From: Aliarcobacter thereius LMG 24486
Lineage (GTDB): Bacteria > Campylobacterota > Campylobacteria > Campylobacterales > Arcobacteraceae
Length of the DNA stretch: 64,000 nt
Assembly (NCBI RefSeq): GCF_004214815.1
Contig: NZ_CP035926.1
Coordinates: 1,178,001-1,242,000 of the forward strand
Direction of reading: 5' to 3'
Positions 6,233 through 53,259 of the stretch are shown here, piece by piece. The translations under genes and the position numbers were made by a program. The number at the start of each line of letters is the position of its first letter. The stretch's first letter is position 1. The notes under the pieces were generated by a model that saw nothing but the letters and a program-made list of their open reading frames with translations, had not been told where the DNA came from and made no database searches.

Positions 6233-6901
6233 TTAAACAAGCCCAACTTTACCAACAACTTTACCTAAGATTTGAATAGTATCAAGTTCACTTTTTTGTA
6301 TTATTTCACTATTATAGTTTTTGTTATCACTTATTAACTCTATTGAACCATCAATTTTTAAAGATACTCTTTTTACAAACAATCCTATATTTGTAGATAC
6401 TATAAATATTCCACCTTTTGAGATATCTGTATTATCTTTATCAAATAAAATTATCTCTTTATCATTTAGTGTTGGCTCCATTGAATCACCAGTTACATTT
6501 AAAGCAATAATAGATTCAGTTTTACTAGAGTTTGATTTATATAAAGAGTTTAATATATTTTTATCAATATTTAGATACTCAAAATTCTCATCATAATTAA
6601 ATCCCCCTCCTCCAGCACTTGCATTTATATTTATAAAGTGTTTTACTCTTATATATTTTTCTGTTTGTTCTTCTAGTGATTTTGGAAGTTGATCAAATAA
6701 AACCCAATTAATAGAAATTTTTCTTTTTGCACAAAACTTTGCAATTTGTTCATAAGGAATAGAATTTTTCTTTTTCATAATAGATAATGACTCTTTAGAT
6801 ATATTTAAAGAAGCTGCTACATCTTTATCAAATACTTTTTTATTATCTAATTCATTTGATAATATATCTTTTAATTTATCAATAATCTCATTAATATGCA
6901 T
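6233..6901 (-). CDS. LexA/CI-like repressor with S24 self-cleaving domain
   Basis: 222 residues: an N-terminal HTH of the CI type (about residues 20-70) and a C-terminal peptidase S24 domain. All features of RecA-stimulated autocleavage are visible: an Ala-Gly scissile bond in NASAGGGG (A96-G97), catalytic Ser in GDSMEP (S140) and catalytic Lys in LFVKRVS (K177). It is divergent from a Y-family polymerase across 83 bp containing a perfect palindrome. This suggests a local DNA-damage switch: repressor cleavage would release the polymerase. Well-studied Campylobacterota lack canonical LexA, so this is likely a mobile-element regulator. It could also act as a prophage CI, but no other phage genes are near. 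Confidence 0.88.
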   Translation of the reverse strand: MHINEIIDKLKDILSNELDNKKVFDKDVAASLNISKESLSIMKKKNSIPYEQIAKFCAKRKISINWVLFDQLPKSLEEQTEKYIRVKHFININASAGGGGFNYDENFEYLNIDKNILNSLYKSNSSKTESIIALNVTGDSMEPTLNDKEIILFDKDNTDISKGGIFIVSTNIGLFVKRVSLKIDGSIELISDNKNYNSEIIQKSELDTIQILGKVVGKVGLV

Positions 6902-6914
6902 ATCTTACCTTTTT

Positions 6915-6933
6915 AGTTAAATATTATTTAACT
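6915..6933. promoter_or_regulatory. 19-bp palindromic operator between repressor and polymerase
   Basis: AGTTAAAT-ATT-ATTTAACT is a perfect inverted repeat in the 83-bp divergent region. A second perfect palindrome, AATTATAATTATAATT (6951-6966), lies nearer the polymerase start. Binding by the S24 repressor is inferred from position. Confidence 0.6.
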
Positions 6934-6984
6934 TTTTAATTCATCTGTGCAATTATAATTATAATTTCTTTAATTAATATTATT

Positions 6985-8289
6985 ATGGAATTAAATATGA
7001 AGATACATTTAGATTTAGATTGTTACTTTGTAAGTGCAGAAAGAACTAGATACCCTTTTCTAAAAGGAAAGAATGTTGTTGTTGCAAAAAGTAGTGATAA
7101 AAAAATATTTTCAAATGAGAAAAAGCAAAGTGTTTTATTAGGTGATACAGGAGCCTTTAATAGTGTTTTAGAGTTTAAAAACTCTTATGACACTAATAAT
7201 ATATTAAAAGCATGGAGAGATGAGTTTTTAGATGAAAATGGTGAAATTCATGGAATAGTAATTGCAAAAAGTTATGAATGTAAACCTTATGGCATAAAAA
7301 CAGGCACACCCTTAAGAGAAGCTATACACATGTGTCCAAACTTAATTATAATTCCTAGTGATCATCTGTTTTATCAACAACTTTCTCAAAAGCTAAAAAC
7401 CTATTTAGAGTTTAAAATACCAGTACTTGAACAATACTCAATTGATGAGTTCTTTGGAGATTTAAATGGTTGGGTTAAAAATAATGATACATTAGAATTT
7501 ATCAAAGATCTAAGAGATGATATAAAAGATAAATTTGATTTACCAATTACAATTGCAGGAAGTAAAAGTAAATGGATAGCAAAACTCTTAACTGATTGTG
7601 TAAAACCATTTGGAGTAATTGCTTTAGAGCAAGAAAAAGTATATGAATATACAAATCATATTAGTGTAAATGATTTTCCAGGTATTGGAAGAGCAATTAG
7701 TAAAAAGTTAGCTGATTATAGAGTTAAAACATTAGGAGAATTAAGAGCTAGACCAAATTTATTATACTTATATGGTAAAACAGGAGTTGAATTATATGAA
7801 AGAATTTGTGGAACTGATAACGACAAAGTAATACCATATAATGATAGAAGAGGTATTGGAATTAGTAGAAACTTTAAAGCCACTATAGACAGAAATGAAA
7901 TATATAGAAGAGTAATGATACTTGCTAGATATCTTAGTTATACAATTTCAAAACTAAAATTAAATCCAACAACATTTTATTTTAAAATAAGATATGAGTA
8001 TGGAGTTAAAAACCATCAATCAATTAGTGAGAATAGACTATTTAATGAAAAGTTTTTAATAGATTTAGCACTAAAAATGTTTCAAAAACTAGATACTAGA
8101 AAAAACTATAAAATACACTATCTAGCAATTAGTGCATCAAACTTTGCAACAAACCATAATATAAAAACCTTCTCAGTAATAGAGTATGAAAAAGATCTAA
8201 AATATAAAGCACTAAATGAAAAGCTAATAAAGATAAGAGACAAATATGGTGTTGATATAGTTAGGTATGCAAGGGAGAATCAGGTGTGA
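6985..8289 (+). CDS. Y-family translesion DNA polymerase (UmuC/DinB-like)
   Basis: 434 residues. Catalytic acidic residues are visible in HLDLDCYFVSAER (D10, D12) and YSIDEFFGD (D154, E155). A helix-hairpin-helix region follows (NDFPGIGRAISKKLADY) and then a little-finger domain. About 55 extra residues (36-90) sit between the VVVAK strand and the AKSYECKPYGIKTG.P segment, unlike standard DinB. ATG 6985 is possible, but 6997 (MKIHLDLD) matches the start of the paralogue at 37687-38979 and has GGA upstream. Such enzymes copy past damaged bases. Divergence from an S24 repressor suggests damage-inducible control. No UmuD gene is adjacent. Confidence 0.88.
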   Translation: MELNMKIHLDLDCYFVSAERTRYPFLKGKNVVVAKSSDKKIFSNEKKQSVLLGDTGAFNSVLEFKNSYDTNNILKAWRDEFLDENGEIHGIVIAKSYECKPYGIKTGTPLREAIHMCPNLIIIPSDHLFYQQLSQKLKTYLEFKIPVLEQYSIDEFFGDLNGWVKNNDTLEFIKDLRDDIKDKFDLPITIAGSKSKWIAKLLTDCVKPFGVIALEQEKVYEYTNHISVNDFPGIGRAISKKLADYRVKTLGELRARPNLLYLYGKTGVELYERICGTDNDKVIPYNDRRGIGISRNFKATIDRNEIYRRVMILARYLSYTISKLKLNPTTFYFKIRYEYGVKNHQSISENRLFNEKFLIDLALKMFQKLDTRKNYKIHYLAISASNFATNHNIKTFSVIEYEKDLKYKALNEKLIKIRDKYGVDIVRYARENQV

Positions 8290-10752: not shown

Positions 10753-11520
10753 CTATTTTATACAACAATCATTTATATCATCTTCAAAATCTATCCAAGA
10801 TTTTAGTTCTTCATCTTTTTCATAAATCTCATCCAATAAAACTTTATGAATAAATTTTTCAATTTCATTTCTATACCAATCATATGGTTTTGGATTTTTA
10901 ACTAAAGTATTTATTCCCTCATCATTATCTTTTTCATAAAATAGATCTTTTGATTGTATATTTCTATAAAGATGCTCTGTATTTGATGTTATATGGTTTT
11001 TTAAATAATCATTTACGAATTTTTTAGGAGTAATAAATTCTTTTTCTAAAACATAATAAATATCAAATAAATCTCTATACTTTTTTCTATTCCAAAAAGC
11101 CATTGTTTTCATATAGATAAGAGTTTCAAGAGAAGAAACTTTTAAGTCACTATTTTCATAATATGTAAATTTGTCATTTTTCCAAATTTCTTCTTCAAAT
11201 AAATTAAATGGAGGTGTAAAAAATTCAACTTTTACACCACTTAACAAAAATTTCATATAGCTATAATTTATATCTGCACCATCATTTGAAACATAATCTT
11301 CCATTGTTTTATCATGTTCTATTATTGTTCCACCATATTTAAAAATCATATTACTAATCTCTTTTGGAGATAAATTTAAAGTTGCAAAATCTAAATCCTC
11401 AGATAATCTATGATTTATTCTATAACTTAAAGCTGTTCCACCAACAAATCTAATATCAAAGTTTTTAAATAAATCATCATTACAAATAATCTCTAAAACT
11501 TCTTTTGTTTTTTCTAGCAT
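10753..11520 (-). CDS. AbiEii-like nucleotidyltransferase toxin
   Basis: 255 residues of the AbiEii/AbiGii nucleotidyltransferase family. The core motif is GGTALSYR...SEDLDF near residues 27-45, giving the GG, Ser and paired Asp residues of the polymerase-beta-like active site; a helical C-terminal half follows, with MAFWNRKKYRDLFDIYY. Characterised relatives act as toxins that modify tRNA or other RNA using nucleotides, in bicistronic abortive-infection or toxin-antitoxin systems. The start codon directly abuts the stop of the upstream HTH gene, so the pair is translationally linked. Confidence 0.85.
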   Translation of the reverse strand: MLEKTKEVLEIICNDDLFKNFDIRFVGGTALSYRINHRLSEDLDFATLNLSPKEISNMIFKYGGTIIEHDKTMEDYVSNDGADINYSYMKFLLSGVKVEFFTPPFNLFEEEIWKNDKFTYYENSDLKVSSLETLIYMKTMAFWNRKKYRDLFDIYYVLEKEFITPKKFVNDYLKNHITSNTEHLYRNIQSKDLFYEKDNDEGINTLVKNPKPYDWYRNEIEKFIHKVLLDEIYEKDEELKSWIDFEDDINDCCIK

Positions 11521-12090
11521 CTATATTTTCCTTATATATTTTAAATGAGTATTAAATGATTTTAAAAGTTTGATATCCTTTTGTTTAATGATATAAGGCT
11601 TTAATCTATCTTCTCCAAAATATTTAATAAGAAGCATTAATCTCTTATCATTCCATGATGATAAAACAATATTTATAAAATTTGGTATGTCATATATATG
11701 ACCATTTTCTACACTATAAAATAGCTCTTCTCCAAAAATCTTTTTATCTAAAACAATCTGTTTTTGAGATACTTCAATAATTGGTTTTATTAAATCATTT
11801 TGTAAATATTTTTCATCTGTTTTTTTACTTGTTCTTTGTTTTTGCTCATCAAATTCAAAACTATTTAAAAACTTTAGAAATTGATCATCTTTATTTAGTT
11901 TAATTAATATTTTCAGATAATTTTCAAAAGATATTTTTCCACTTTGCTCAAAAGTTTTATAAGTTGCATATTTTATATCAACAAAATCGGCAAACTCTTC
12001 TTGAGTTAAGTCTAAAGCAATTCTTTCTGCTCTTATTTTTACTTTTGATAAAGCAATCAATTTGTCTAAATTTTTATTTAGCATATACAT
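11521..12090 (-). CDS. HTH antitoxin paired with AbiEii-like toxin
   Basis: 189 residues: an N-terminal XRE-type HTH (LDLTQEEFADFVDIKYATYKT, about 26-46) and a C-terminal part of unknown fold. ATG 12090 has AAGG only one base away; the in-frame ATG at 12084 has AAGG at 7 bases and is the better start. It is the first gene of the unit, with the nucleotidyltransferase immediately behind. Two AATTGATA/TATCAATT-type inverted repeats upstream are its likely operators. AbiEi antitoxins usually carry a winged helix, so this XRE form is a variant pairing. Confidence 0.78.
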   Translation of the reverse strand: MYMLNKNLDKLIALSKVKIRAERIALDLTQEEFADFVDIKYATYKTFEQSGKISFENYLKILIKLNKDDQFLKFLNSFEFDEQKQRTSKKTDEKYLQNDLIKPIIEVSQKQIVLDKKIFGEELFYSVENGHIYDIPNFINIVLSSWNDKRLMLLIKYFGEDRLKPYIIKQKDIKLLKSFNTHLKYIRKI

Positions 12091-14746: not shown

Positions 14747-15574
14747 TTAACTAACCATTTCAAAACGTAACATTTTATCTTCAAATTCACTTGGAGACAT
14801 ATATCCATTTGATGAATGTAATCTTTGTCTATTGTAAAAAATCTCTATATATTCAAATATTTTTTCATTTGCTTGTGAGCGTGTTAAAAACTTTTCATGA
14901 TGAATTAATTCAGTTTTTAGAGAATGAAAAAAACTCTCTGCAACTGCATTATCCCAGCAATCTCCTTTTCTACTCATACTTTGAACTATCCCATATTTTT
15001 CTAAAAGATTTTTATGTTCATAAGAGGCATACTGACTTCCTCTATCAGTATGATAAATTAGTCCTTTAGAAGGATTTCTTCTTTTTAATGCCATTAATAG
15101 TGCATCATTAACAAGTGAAGTTTTTAAACTATAATTCATAGACCATCCAACAACTTTTCTTGAGTAAATATCGATTACAACAGCCAAATATAACCATCCC
15201 TCATTTGTTGGAATATATGTAATGTCTCCAACATAAACTTTATCTATTTGTGAGCTATAAAAATCTCTATTTAGATGATTTGGTGCAATTGGTAGAGTAT
15301 GATTTGATGTTGTTGTAATTACTTTAAATCTTCGTTTCATTTTTACTTTTAGATTTAAATATTTCAGAGTTCTTTGAAGTTTCCTTCTTGAAACTATAAG
15401 ACCATATCTTTGTTTTAAAACCTCTTTCAATCTTCTTGTTCCATAAGTTGCTCTTGCTTGTTCAAAAATGTTTTTTACAAGTTCATTTAGCTCTTTATCA
15501 ATTTTATTTACAATACAACCTTTGTCAATCCAGTTGTAGTAACAACTTCTACTAACTTTAAATAGTTTACACAT
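14747..15574 (-). CDS. IS3-family transposase OrfB (DDE domain)
   Basis: The catalytic half of the transposase. An HTH_21-like N-terminal region ([20 protein letters not shown]) precedes the rve integrase core with DDE residues visible in [29 protein letters not shown] and DNAVAESFF. Its frame is open upstream of ATG 15574 back to the slippery site, so the active product is the OrfAB fusion made by -1 frameshifting. Nothing essential appears lost. Confidence 0.93.
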
Positions 15575-15621
15575 AAGTTGTACATTAAAACTCTTTGAGT
15601 GTTCTTTTATCCATGCATACT

Positions 15622-15915
15622 TTACAGAGTTTCTTTTGCAAAGTATGCTGCTGCCTTTTTTAATATCTCTTTTTCTTGTTTTAAAATTGCAAGTTCTTTT
15701 TTTAGTCTTTTATTCTCTTGCTCTAGAGTCTCATTTTTTAAATCATTTACAGGTAGTAAATTATTTTTAGCTTTGTACTCATTTACCCATAAAGCTAAAG
15801 TTCCTTTATTTAGTCCTAAATCTCTTGCTATACTTGAAATTGATCTATCACTATTATCAATACAAAACTTTATTGTTGATTCTCTAAACTCTTGTGAGTA
15901 ATTACTTTTTCTCAT
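15622..15915 (-). CDS. IS3-family transposase OrfA (HTH)
   Basis: 97 residues: an HTH_Tnp domain ([10 protein letters not shown]...[20 protein letters not shown]) that binds the terminal repeats, then a leucine-zipper coiled coil ([20 protein letters not shown]). It ends shortly after the A AAA AAG slippery heptamer. OrfA alone usually represses transposition. Confidence 0.92.
15655..15661 (-). other. Programmed -1 frameshift site A AAA AAG
   Basis: On the minus strand the OrfA frame reads TTA AAA AAG; slipping one base back at this heptamer continues into the OrfB frame (GGC AGC AGC ATA CTT). It is the standard mechanism in IS3 elements. Confidence 0.8.
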
Positions 15916-36633: not shown

Positions 36634-37203
36634 TTAAACTTTTCTTTTCTTAATCATCTTGTCTAATTCTTCTGTAATCATTTTATTTTGTGCCACAAGA
36701 TATTTAACTTCTGGAAGTAAATTTTCTCTATTTGCTAAATCTCTTTCTATCCATCTGCTAGGATGCTCTCCACTATTATAAGCTTTTAGTATTTGATTTA
36801 TATTTGATGATAAGTTTGCAATAGCTTGTCTTGTTCTCATAGTATCTATTCTTAATTTTTCAAGCTGCTCTATTTCATTTACATAATCTTCTGATAAACT
36901 AGACTTTAACATTTCTCTTGCAAATGTAGAAATATTTTTATATCCATTATCAAAAGCTTTTTTAGTAAACAAAGCTTTATCTTCTTCTGTAACATTAAAC
37001 TTTATATATTTATTCATACTTTTATTTTCGGAGTTTAAATCAAATGTATTTAATTGGCTTCTATATATTTCTGAAAAATCTTTTTTCATTTTAGCTCTAA
37101 AAAATTCTGAAAAAGTTTTATATCCTTCTTTTTTTGCTATCTTAAAAAGCTCTTCTTTCTCTACTTCACTATTTAATCTTACTTCAATTCTTATACTTTT
37201 CAT
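36634..37203 (-). CDS. mobC: MobC-like mobilization protein
   Basis: 189 residues. Two RHH-like regions (IRIEVRLNSEVEKEELF and IKFNVTEEDKALFTKKAF) and a MobC domain with RQAIANLSSNINQILKAYN followed by SGEHP. MobC proteins help the relaxase open oriT. Transcribed away from the nic-like site at 37269 and the iterons, as expected for a mob gene. The 36290-36633 space lies between it and the possible relaxase remnant. Confidence 0.85.
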   Translation of the reverse strand: MKSIRIEVRLNSEVEKEELFKIAKKEGYKTFSEFFRAKMKKDFSEIYRSQLNTFDLNSENKSMNKYIKFNVTEEDKALFTKKAFDNGYKNISTFAREMLKSSLSEDYVNEIEQLEKLRIDTMRTRQAIANLSSNINQILKAYNSGEHPSRWIERDLANRENLLPEVKYLVAQNKMITEELDKMIKKRKV

Positions 37204-37686: not shown

Positions 37687-38979
37687 TCATTTTTGATATT
37701 CTCTAGCATATCTAATTATATCAACACCATATTTATCTCTAACTTTTGATAGTTTTTCATTTAAAGCTTTAAATTTTAAATCATTTTCGTAATCCATCAC
37801 TGAAAATGTTTTTATATTATTATTTGAAGCAAAATTAGAAGCATTGATTGAAAAGTAGTGTATTTTATAGTTTTTTTTAATATCTAATTTCTGAAACATT
37901 TTTAATGATAAATTTATTAAGAACTTTTCATTAAATAGTCTACTTTCACTAATTGATTCAGAACTTTGTATTTCATATTCATATGTTATTTTAAAATGAA
38001 ATGTTGTTGGGTTTAAATTTAATTTAGTAATTGTATAACTAAGATATCTTGCAAGTATTATTACTCTTCTACCAAGTTCATTTCTATCTAATATAGCTTT
38101 GAAATTTCTACTTACTCCAATAGCTTTTCTATCATTATTAGGAATTACTCTTTCATTATCTGTTCCACAAATTCTATTATATAAATCTCTTCCAGTTTTT
38201 CCATATTCATAAAGTAAATTTTTGTTTTCTCTTAATTGTCCTAATGTTTGGACTCTATAATCACTTAACTTTTTTGATATTACTCTACCAATTCCTGGAA
38301 AATCATTTACATTATAGTTTTTTGTATAATCATAGACTTTTTCTTGGGGTATGGCAATTGTTCCTAAAGGTTTTACCTTATCAGTTAATAGTTTTGCAAT
38401 CCATTTACTTTTACTTGCAGCTATTGTTATTGGTAAATCAAATTTATCTAATATCTCTTTTTGTAAGTCCTTTATAAAATCTAGTGTATCAATATCATTA
38501 ATCCAACCATTCAAATCTCCAAAGAACTCATCAATTGAGTATTGCTCAATAATTGGAATTTTATATTCTAAAAAAGATTTTAGTCTTTGTGATAATTCTT
38601 GATAAAATAGATGATCACTTGGAATAATGATTAAATTAGGACACATAAAAATAGCTTCTTTTAAAGGTGTTCCTATTTTTATGCTATAAGGTTTACATTC
38701 ATAACTTCTTGCAATTATAATTCCATGAATATCTCCATTTTCATCTATAAATTCATCTTTCCATGCTTTTAATATATTATTAGTATCATAAGAATTTTTA
38801 AATTCTAATACACTATTAAATGCTCCAGTATCACCTAATATTACCCCTTGCTTTTTATCATTTGAAAATATCCTTTTATCACTACTTTTTGCAACAACAA
38901 CTTTTTTACCTTTTAAAAAAGGATATCTAGTTCTTTCTGCACTAACAAAATAACAATCTAAATCTAAATGCACAAGCAT
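37687..38979 (-). CDS. Second Y-family DNA polymerase
   Basis: 430 residues, closely similar throughout to the protein at 6985-8289, with the same additional segment after VVVAKSSDKR. Catalytic residues are present in HLDLDCYF and YSIDEFFGDL. It starts MLVHLDLD at 38979. No repressor gene lies beside it and the 19-bp operator of the first copy is absent, so its control differs. It is the last gene of the tRNA-Glu element. Confidence 0.88.
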   Translation of the reverse strand: MLVHLDLDCYFVSAERTRYPFLKGKKVVVAKSSDKRIFSNDKKQGVILGDTGAFNSVLEFKNSYDTNNILKAWKDEFIDENGDIHGIIIARSYECKPYSIKIGTPLKEAIFMCPNLIIIPSDHLFYQELSQRLKSFLEYKIPIIEQYSIDEFFGDLNGWINDIDTLDFIKDLQKEILDKFDLPITIAASKSKWIAKLLTDKVKPLGTIAIPQEKVYDYTKNYNVNDFPGIGRVISKKLSDYRVQTLGQLRENKNLLYEYGKTGRDLYNRICGTDNERVIPNNDRKAIGVSRNFKAILDRNELGRRVIILARYLSYTITKLNLNPTTFHFKITYEYEIQSSESISESRLFNEKFLINLSLKMFQKLDIKKNYKIHYFSINASNFASNNNIKTFSVMDYENDLKFKALNEKLSKVRDKYGVDIIRYAREYQK

Positions 38980-39238
38980 ATAAACAACTCCTATTTTAAA
39001 AGGTTCTATTTACCTTATTATATAAAATTAGAATAAATATATTTAAATTCATTGCAAAATGTAATGTAACTGATGAGAAATATTTAAATAGATAATTGAT
39101 TCATTTAGAAAGAGTTGATAAACATTTTAATTAAATAAATAGACATTGCTGGACACCTACAAAGCTACCTTTATAGTTTTAATTAAAATATTATTTTTTA
39201 AACTTACTTCAAATATCGTTATAATAATACTTTGGAGT

Positions 39239-39314
39239 TGGCGACCCCAGAAAGATTCGAACTTTCGTCATCAAGAGGAAATCTTGAGGTCCTTGGCCGC
39301 TAGACGACGGGGTC
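39239..39314 (-). tRNA. tRNA-Glu (TTC), intact; attR of the element
   Basis: On the minus strand: acceptor GACCCCG/TGGGGTC, D-arm TCGTCTAGCGGCCAAGGA, anticodon stem TCAAG/CTTGA with loop ATTTCCT, and T-arm GTTCGAATC, ending GCCA. The 3' 45 bases equal the left repeat at 26662-26706. Confidence 0.95.
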
Positions 39315-52411: not shown

Positions 52412-52760
52412 ATCTATCTTTTTTATGTTTATCTTTTTTATATCTTGTTTTATTTTTCTCTTTTTGTAAAAGATTTGCCTCTTTTAATAATATTGCCCTT
52501 TCTTCTTCAAAAGTTTCACTAGAATTTTTTAAATATGAAAGTACTTTTTCGACAAAACCATTTAATATTGCATAATATTCTGAATATAGCTCTACTTTCT
52601 TTGTTTTAGAAAAATCTTCATAGTTTTTCTCTGTTCTTTTTAAAAAAAGCTCTTTATCAAAATTTTCAAGCTTTAAAAGTGATATTGTTTTAGTAAAAAA
52701 CTTCTCTAAAACTCTTATATATTTTACTCTTTCTTGCTTCTCATTTGTACTAAAATTCAT
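52395..52760 (-). CDS. Unknown 121-residue charged protein
   Basis: Predicted helical, with KYIRVLEKFFTKTISLLKLE and a final lysine/arginine-rich tail (KKDKHKKDRYDDGN). It sits between the ArsC-family gene and recD2, overlapping both by 10-17 bases, so it is surely in their operon. No membrane segment or known domain recognised. Confidence 0.7.
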   Translation of the reverse strand: MNFSTNEKQERVKYIRVLEKFFTKTISLLKLENFDKELFLKRTEKNYEDFSKTKKVELYSEYYAILNGFVEKVLSYLKNSSETFEEERAILLKEANLLQKEKNKTRYKKDKHKKDRYDDGN

Positions 52761-53106
52761 TCAAAATCTCTTCAATTTTTAGTGGTGGTCTTGCTATAAA
52801 AGCTTTTGTTTCTCCAATTATAATTGGTCTTTGAATTAAAATTGGATTTTTTGAAACTATTTCTAAAAGATTTTCATCATCTTGTATCTTTTGTATATCT
52901 AAGTCATAATATAGTTTTTCGCTATCTCTTATAATATCTTTTATTTTTAGATTTAACTTTGTTAATAGCTCTTTTAACTCCTCTTTACTTGGTGGATTAT
53001 CTAAATAATCTCTTACTTTTACAGCTATTTTATTACTATCTAAATAATCTTTTGCACTATTTGATTTTGAACAAGATTGATTGTGCCAAATCTCTATGTT
53101 TTGCAT
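52750..53106 (-). CDS. ArsC/YffB-like thioredoxin-fold reductase
   Basis: 118 residues. HNQSCSKSNSAKDYL carries the N-terminal catalytic Cys of ArsC-family proteins, and NPILIQRPIIIG with RPP near the end forms the substrate-binding cis-Pro region. Family members include arsenate reductase ArsC and YffB/Spx; no ars genes are nearby, so arsenate is not assured. First gene of the operon with recD2. Confidence 0.85.
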   Translation of the reverse strand: MQNIEIWHNQSCSKSNSAKDYLDSNKIAVKVRDYLDNPPSKEELKELLTKLNLKIKDIIRDSEKLYYDLDIQKIQDDENLLEIVSKNPILIQRPIIIGETKAFIARPPLKIEEILNEF

Positions 53107-53259
53107 ATTTACCTCTAAAGTATTTTAAAATTTGTTTGATTATATCTAAAAAATATTTTATATATAAATAAGATTACATTTTGCAATGCTATTAAATAAA
53201 GGGAAATAGTATATTTTTTTTGATAAAATATATATCAATAATTCAAAAAAGGATAAATT

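Follow-up and report, generated by a model that had tools for sequence, protein, structure and literature searches.

A mobile S24 repressor and Y-family polymerase pair with a predicted private operator: a probable DNA-damage switch beside a predicted SOS-like regulon in Campylobacterota

The window analysed here, a stretch of 64,000 nucleotides (G000:C1:1178001-1242000) from a complete, AT-rich genome of 1.915 Mb whose closest relatives in the sample are Arcobacteraceae, contains two divergent open reading frames that encode an S24 repressor and a Y-family DNA polymerase (Table 1). Among those relatives, G333 and G187 agree in every value with the loci named Arcobacter vandammei and A. cryaerophilus. 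The repressor combines an N-terminal Phage_CI_repr HTH (4.6e-8, residues ~22-70) with a C-terminal Peptidase_S24 domain (1.2e-19, residues 93-216), and the residues associated with autocleavage (Ser-Ala-Gly at the putative scissile bond, and the Ser and Lys of the catalytic dyad) are retained in every one of 70 S24 homologues examined from Campylobacterota, as well as in an alignment of 12 relatives. The preliminary description of this DNA had posited the same divergent pair, a full autocleavage set (Ala-Gly, Ser140 and Lys177) and a perfect 19-bp palindrome between the genes; the coordinates and Pfam assignments agree with the first of these claims, the residue numbering proved to be right, and the palindrome was found.

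Table 1. Features of the repressor-polymerase locus and of core-type sites elsewhere in the window.
Feature	Coordinates	Strand	Basis or remark
S24 repressor, 222 aa	6233..6901	-	Pfam PF07022 + PF00717, AlphaFold fold matches
Putative scissile bond Ala96-Gly97, codons	6611..6616	-	invariant, 70/70 homologues
Catalytic Ser140 (GDSM), codon	6482..6484	-	invariant, 70/70 homologues
Catalytic Lys177 (VKR), codon	6371..6373	-	invariant, 70/70 homologues
Private operator (predicted) AGTTAAATATTATTTAACT	6915..6933	.	sole perfect AGTTRAA-N5-TTYAACT in genome; covarying palindrome, 18/18 window-type loci
Symmetric TATAAT-containing element AATTATAATTATAATT	6951..6966	.	sequence and inverted-repeat scan
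Y-family DNA polymerase, 434 aa	6985..8289	+	PF00817 + PF11799, motifs
Second Y-family polymerase, same subfamily, 78% identical to window polymerase, no adjacent S24	37687..38979	-	
Core-type operator (predicted) ATTGCAAAATGTAAT	39051..39065	.	79 bp before second polymerase
Core-type operator (predicted) ATTACATTTTGCAAT	53173..53187	.	74 bp before arsC/spx-like gene

An AlphaFold model of the repressor (mean pLDDT 80.5, pTM 0.57) displays two domains whose relative position is uncertain, and a fold search with that model returned the phage 186 and lambda repressors, UmuD' and LexA, the last also in its complex with RecA. These predicted similarities support competence for cleavage, short of demonstrating it; a sequence search of the PDB gave no match at E 0.001. 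The polymerase matches the IMS (3.5e-35) and IMS_C (4.2e-5) domains, has intact active-site motifs (LDLDCYF and SIDEFFGDL), and scores under all NCBIfam cut-offs for Pol IV or UmuC; its translation could well begin at Met5 (6997) instead, and no obvious beta-clamp motif was seen. The identity of the repressor as a canonical LexA was considered and rejected: the S24 domain, the Ala-Gly bond and the Ser/Lys pair are all present, but a CI-type HTH stands where PF01726 would be expected, and a PF01726 search found no canonical LexA elsewhere in the source genome. A UmuDC (Pol V) operon was likewise rejected, because an HTH is present in the S24 protein, whose gene is transcribed divergently from that of the polymerase.

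The palindrome (AGTTAAAT-ATT-ATTTAACT) lies 13 bp ahead of the repressor start codon, and the chance of a nine-pair palindrome in this spacer, as estimated by dinucleotide shuffling (P ~0.016), is by itself only weak evidence in so AT-rich a sequence. Comparison across window-type loci indicates that its conservation is not due to chance: the pattern RRTTRA-N7-TYAAYT is matched at 12 of 12 positions in 15 of the 18 spacers (0.07 expected) and at 11 or more positions in all 18 (1.14 expected), these expected values being somewhat flattering in that the pattern was derived partly from the loci on which it was scored. Furthermore, both arms covary between loci, reading AGTTGACAATTTGTCAACT at locus L013 versus AGTTAAATATTATTTAACT in the window. 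A scan of the genome for the palindrome, which the preliminary description had proposed as a check, gave a single perfect copy of AGTTRAA-N5-TTYAACT, located between repressor and polymerase; at no more than one mismatch there are 30 sites versus 8 for the reversed pattern, and since all 29 of the imperfect sites fall within open reading frames, that excess is attributable to coding sequence, no second target was found, and a wider regulon for the window repressor was rejected. The neighbouring element AATTATAATTATAATT, which presents TATAAT in both directions, probably serves both divergent promoters as their -10 region.

Ten relatives (56-86% identity) all retain the divergent Y-family polymerase, and the genes surrounding them vary from genome to genome (HU, Sir2, integrase, metabolic or plasmid genes); the pair is also carried by three plasmids, namely pACIB of Aliarcobacter cibarius, pSULFM1 of Sulfurimonas aquatica and pSDCE1 of Sulfurospirillum diekertiae. 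In a phylogenetic tree, the window-type repressors, with the exception of L083, form one clade (100/99) that is separate from the chromosomal S24 repressors, and the segment corresponding to the recognition helix varies in parallel with the type of operator, being KESLS.(L/M)KK for window-type proteins, Q(A/V/M)NFATMK for those of the chromosomal or 'core' type, and PE(H/N)LS.LKKRN in family f5 of the sample. The association of the two genes is not obligate, as one genome (G371, locus L053) has a window-type repressor and operator but no Y-family polymerase detected, at the threshold applied, either next to them or in the rest of the genome, and several others harbor window-type polymerases without a repressor. 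Arcobacter-like pairs were also encountered on MAG contigs labelled Gracilibacteria (L016) and Helicobacter pylori (L009 and L010); the repressor of the former is nearly identical to that of the A. cibarius plasmid, and such labels therefore look wrong or contaminated.

The source genome encodes one further S24 protein and no others: a chromosomal (core) paralogue, 45% identical to the window repressor, in which only the S24 domain passes in Pfam and the HTH is recognised by alignment. In a profile search at E 1e-20, 213 of the 397 Campylobacterota genomes in the sample, representing 53 of 68 genera, contained a member of this S24 family; the weaker of these matches, in families f2 and f3, may be prophage repressors. 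The same two families are home to most of the genomes without a repressor and are probably Helicobacteraceae and Campylobacteraceae, an assignment made by elimination. The LexA_DNA_bind domain (PF01726) was detected in 1 of the 397 genomes and is absent from the other 396, in agreement with the earlier statement that well-studied members of this phylum lack LexA.

Throughout the Arcobacteraceae, the core gene is preceded, at a distance of 16-28 bp from its start, by a palindrome of the form TATTDCA-N3-TGHAATA, which is present at 12 or more of 14 positions in 33 of 33 cases (2.3 expected) and perfect in 28 of them (0.01 expected); the copy in the source genome is slightly degraded (13 of 14). 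The same core operator precedes 11 of 12 unlinked Y-family polymerases from that family (0.7 expected). Across 41 Arcobacteraceae genomes the core pattern occurs at 126 sites, versus 33 for its reversed counterpart, and 38 of the 42 distinct sites that were inspected are intergenic. Genes located behind these sites include recA, radA, a radical-SAM DNA modification or repair protein, an alkylation-repair protein and a Dam methylase, as well as integron integrases (called as short reading frames, L212 1523-1834 and L219 2103-2612), the last of which recalls the control of integron integrases by LexA elsewhere. The only perfect 17-bp core site in the source genome lies 76 bp ahead of recA.

The relationship of this operator to recA was assessed more broadly, within limited sampling, using the pattern TATKDCA-N3-TGHMATA and a cut-off of at least 12 of 14 positions. 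All 43 recA promoters from four families carry it (~2.4 expected), comprising 30 of 30 in Arcobacteraceae, 6 of 6 in f7, 4 of 4 in f4, and 3 of 3 in those f10 genomes in which the polymerase is unlinked. The pattern was found at recA in none of 7 genomes without a detected S24 relative, and in none of 10 from families in which S24 and polymerase genes form linked pairs (f5, f8, f11 and part of f10). At unlinked polymerases it is present in 13 of 13 cases from f10 and is weaker in f7 and f4. It is the core paralogue, and not the window repressor with its single operator copy between the paired genes, that has an operator at recA.

Within the window, two observations touch upon these core-type sites. 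The second Y-family polymerase adjoins a tRNA-Glu (39239-39314) and lies near a MobC-like gene (36634-37203), which suggests an integrated mobile element. The arsC/spx-like gene (52750-53106, minus strand) is an unexpected candidate member of the regulon; the same gene and site are found in another genome (G106, L202), and a similar gene at L193 also has a core operator.

S24 and Y-family polymerase genes are unlinked in several families. Divergent pairs with an S24 protein of the chromosomal type are found in f5, f8, f11 and part of f10, and this distribution points to an old origin of the two-gene unit within the phylum. Family f10 includes Sulfurospirillum, as the S. diekertiae plasmid is present in genome G056. 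In f5 and f8, palindromes of the type TTAACAA-N-TTGTTAA, often two of them, lie between the S24 and polymerase genes (L110-L124) and constitute a third type of operator.

Taken as a whole, the locus is probably a self-contained, horizontally mobile DNA-damage switch, whose repressor shares its protein family with the predicted chromosomal S24 substitute for LexA. By analogy with other members of that family, a repressor dimer would occupy the single palindrome, which would adjoin the polymerase promoter at its -35 region and lie just downstream of the -10 of the repressor's own promoter, next to the start region of the latter, so that both divergent genes would be repressed. Upon DNA damage, RecA would assemble on single-stranded DNA, and the resulting filament would stimulate cleavage at Ala96-Gly97 in a manner dependent on Ser140 and Lys177; repression would then be lifted, the translesion polymerase would be made, and resynthesis of the repressor would reset the switch. 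The core repressor, in turn, would act as a substitute for LexA in much of the phylum, controlling recA, itself and other Y-family polymerases through a different operator. Polymerases may arrive with a private repressor and later come under the control of the core repressor, a course of events that the second polymerase in the window would fit.

These observations modify the proposal, made in the preliminary description, that the pair could supply a private SOS-like switch where LexA is lacking. The notion of a private switch is well supported in silico by the exclusive operator, the conserved divergent pair, the invariant cleavage site and dyad, and mobility as a unit, but there is no such support for a role as stand-in where an SOS system is missing, since the same genome possesses a core S24 repressor with operators at recA, at the second Y-family polymerase and at its own gene. 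That apparent core regulon leads instead to the view of the window pair as a mobile private switch operating beside a widespread, LexA-independent, SOS-like regulon.

Several other explanations of the pair were considered. The CI-type HTH, together with the finding that the phage proteins closest to the window repressor, at 35-41% identity, are prophage repressors from Helicobacter and Campylobacter, could indicate a prophage remnant, or the CI of a lysogeny module, that came to lie beside a polymerase by chance and forms no dedicated damage switch. This is very unlikely, and the identity was rejected: phage genes do not flank the pair, which stays together as one unit across the varied contexts described above, its operator lies between both genes, and phage repressors branch outside of the S24 repressor family in the tree (100/100). 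The matches to the operators might, alternatively, reflect nothing more than promoter composition in an AT-rich genome, in which the window palindrome considered alone is of modest significance. We regard this as extremely improbable, as the recA motif is missing from dinucleotide-shuffled controls just as it is from genomes without S24 and from families with other operators, and both the excess over the reversed pattern and the intergenic position of the inspected sites speak against it.

Two additional possibilities concern how the repressor would act. Many phage repressors respond to inputs other than RecA, and a CI-type repressor could control the pair independently of RecA, with derepression brought about by an antirepressor, a protease, temperature or redox state; the invariance of the scissile Ala-Gly, Ser and Lys in all homologues examined, and the placement of the core paralogue's operator at recA, an expected SOS target, make such a cue improbable. 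A second role for the S24 protein, as a UmuD-like subunit that would activate the polymerase through its C-terminal half once cleaved, is also rather improbable; such a fusion of repressor and UmuD, in the manner of UmuDAb, would complement the switch without taking its place. A weak match of the repressor to the model for the Pol V autoproteolytic subunit, its structural match to UmuD', and the frequent pairing of S24 with a polymerase are consistent with that role, whereas the polymerase stops shortly past the conserved KYG...RYA segment and has no long UmuC-type tail, S24 and polymerase are unlinked in several families, and some polymerases occur without a window-type S24.

A damage response run by an S24 protein other than canonical LexA has been described for HdiR, UmuDAb, the Bacteroidetes CI-type LexA (PMC8565304) and FddR (PMC13148647), and several traits of a non-canonical, CI-type LexA-like regulator are found here: a CI-type HTH joined to an S24 domain in the window repressor and, in silico, palindromic operators both at the gene for the regulator and at those for error-prone polymerases. 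FddR of Francisella similarly is an S24 repressor of phage-like origin that regulates itself through a palindrome in bacteria that lack a canonical LexA response, and in some species it is divergent from a Y-family polymerase (dinB), with the palindrome of the present locus also placed in the spacer; its motif (GTG-N11-CAC) differs, however, from AGTTRA-N7-TYAACT, its network is local whereas the core paralogue has operators at recA, and its homologues were reported to be absent outside Francisella (PMC13148647). The non-canonical LexA of Bacteroidetes shares the CI-type N-terminal domain, the S24 domain and the replacement of LexA as the regulator of a repair regulon, but belongs to a different phylum, recognizes CTAA-N5-TTAG rather than RRTTRA-N7-TYAAYT or TATKDCA-N3-TGHMATA, and has had its induction by damage measured (PMC8565304). 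HdiR (Lactococcus, Streptococcaceae) is a LexA-like S24 repressor of itself and of a UmuC homologue, acting after damage and in dependence on RecA, that comes from low-GC Gram-positives and is reported to have a minimal regulon only (PMC8565304). UmuDAb of Acinetobacter likewise is an S24 protein in the place of LexA as repressor of error-prone polymerases, but is derived from UmuD, requires the corepressor DdrR and has no CI-type HTH (PMC11332147). The polymerases themselves likely belong, judging by host group, to an epsilon-proteobacterial PolIV-like subfamily (type Arcobacter nitrofigilis), for which the relevant portion of its description gives no repressor or operator (PMC6511836). Systems of this kind are known; what looks new is the member described here, its phylum, and the coexistence of a mobile private switch and a core regulon.

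For the group as a whole, Campylobacter jejuni, in which LexA is missing and ciprofloxacin elicits no typical SOS induction, had stood as the example, epsilonproteobacteria including Campylobacter and Helicobacter being described as without a LexA ortholog (PMC2390758); the genome paper for Arcobacter butzleri mentions neither LexA nor SOS (PMC2147049), and a literature search covering a minority of subscription papers found no account of such a regulator for Arcobacter, Sulfurimonas or Campylobacterota. The distribution described above suggests that an SOS-like circuit is present after all in many relatives of C. jejuni, food- and animal-associated Aliarcobacter among them, and its absence from some Campylobacterota may represent loss. 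An S24-based, SOS-like regulon appears to replace canonical LexA in much of the phylum. Fairly probable, in our judgment, is the fuller reading in which a damage-inducible regulon under a CI-type S24 repressor, with recA, Y-family polymerases, radA, the radical-SAM repair protein and integron integrases as its targets in Arcobacteraceae and related families, grew from an older S24/polymerase unit of two genes that persists in several families, does not extend to recA in those genomes of the sample that lack the repressor, and coexists with mobile units bearing a re-coded private operator. Growth of a network from divergent units was proposed for Francisella (PMC13148647), and intermediate stages of such growth would be visible here. 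The predicted circuit would be tied to sources of variation, namely polymerases and integron integrases, and its regulator and two operators are now directly testable.

Two further features of the window were recorded. An IS3-type transposase pair (orfA/orfB) occupies 14747-15915, near a toxin-antitoxin-like region at 10753-12090, and the minus strand at 278-2827 encodes a protein of 849 aa with WD40 repeats, the C-terminal part of which is caspase-like (SGHG and DSCFSG motifs).
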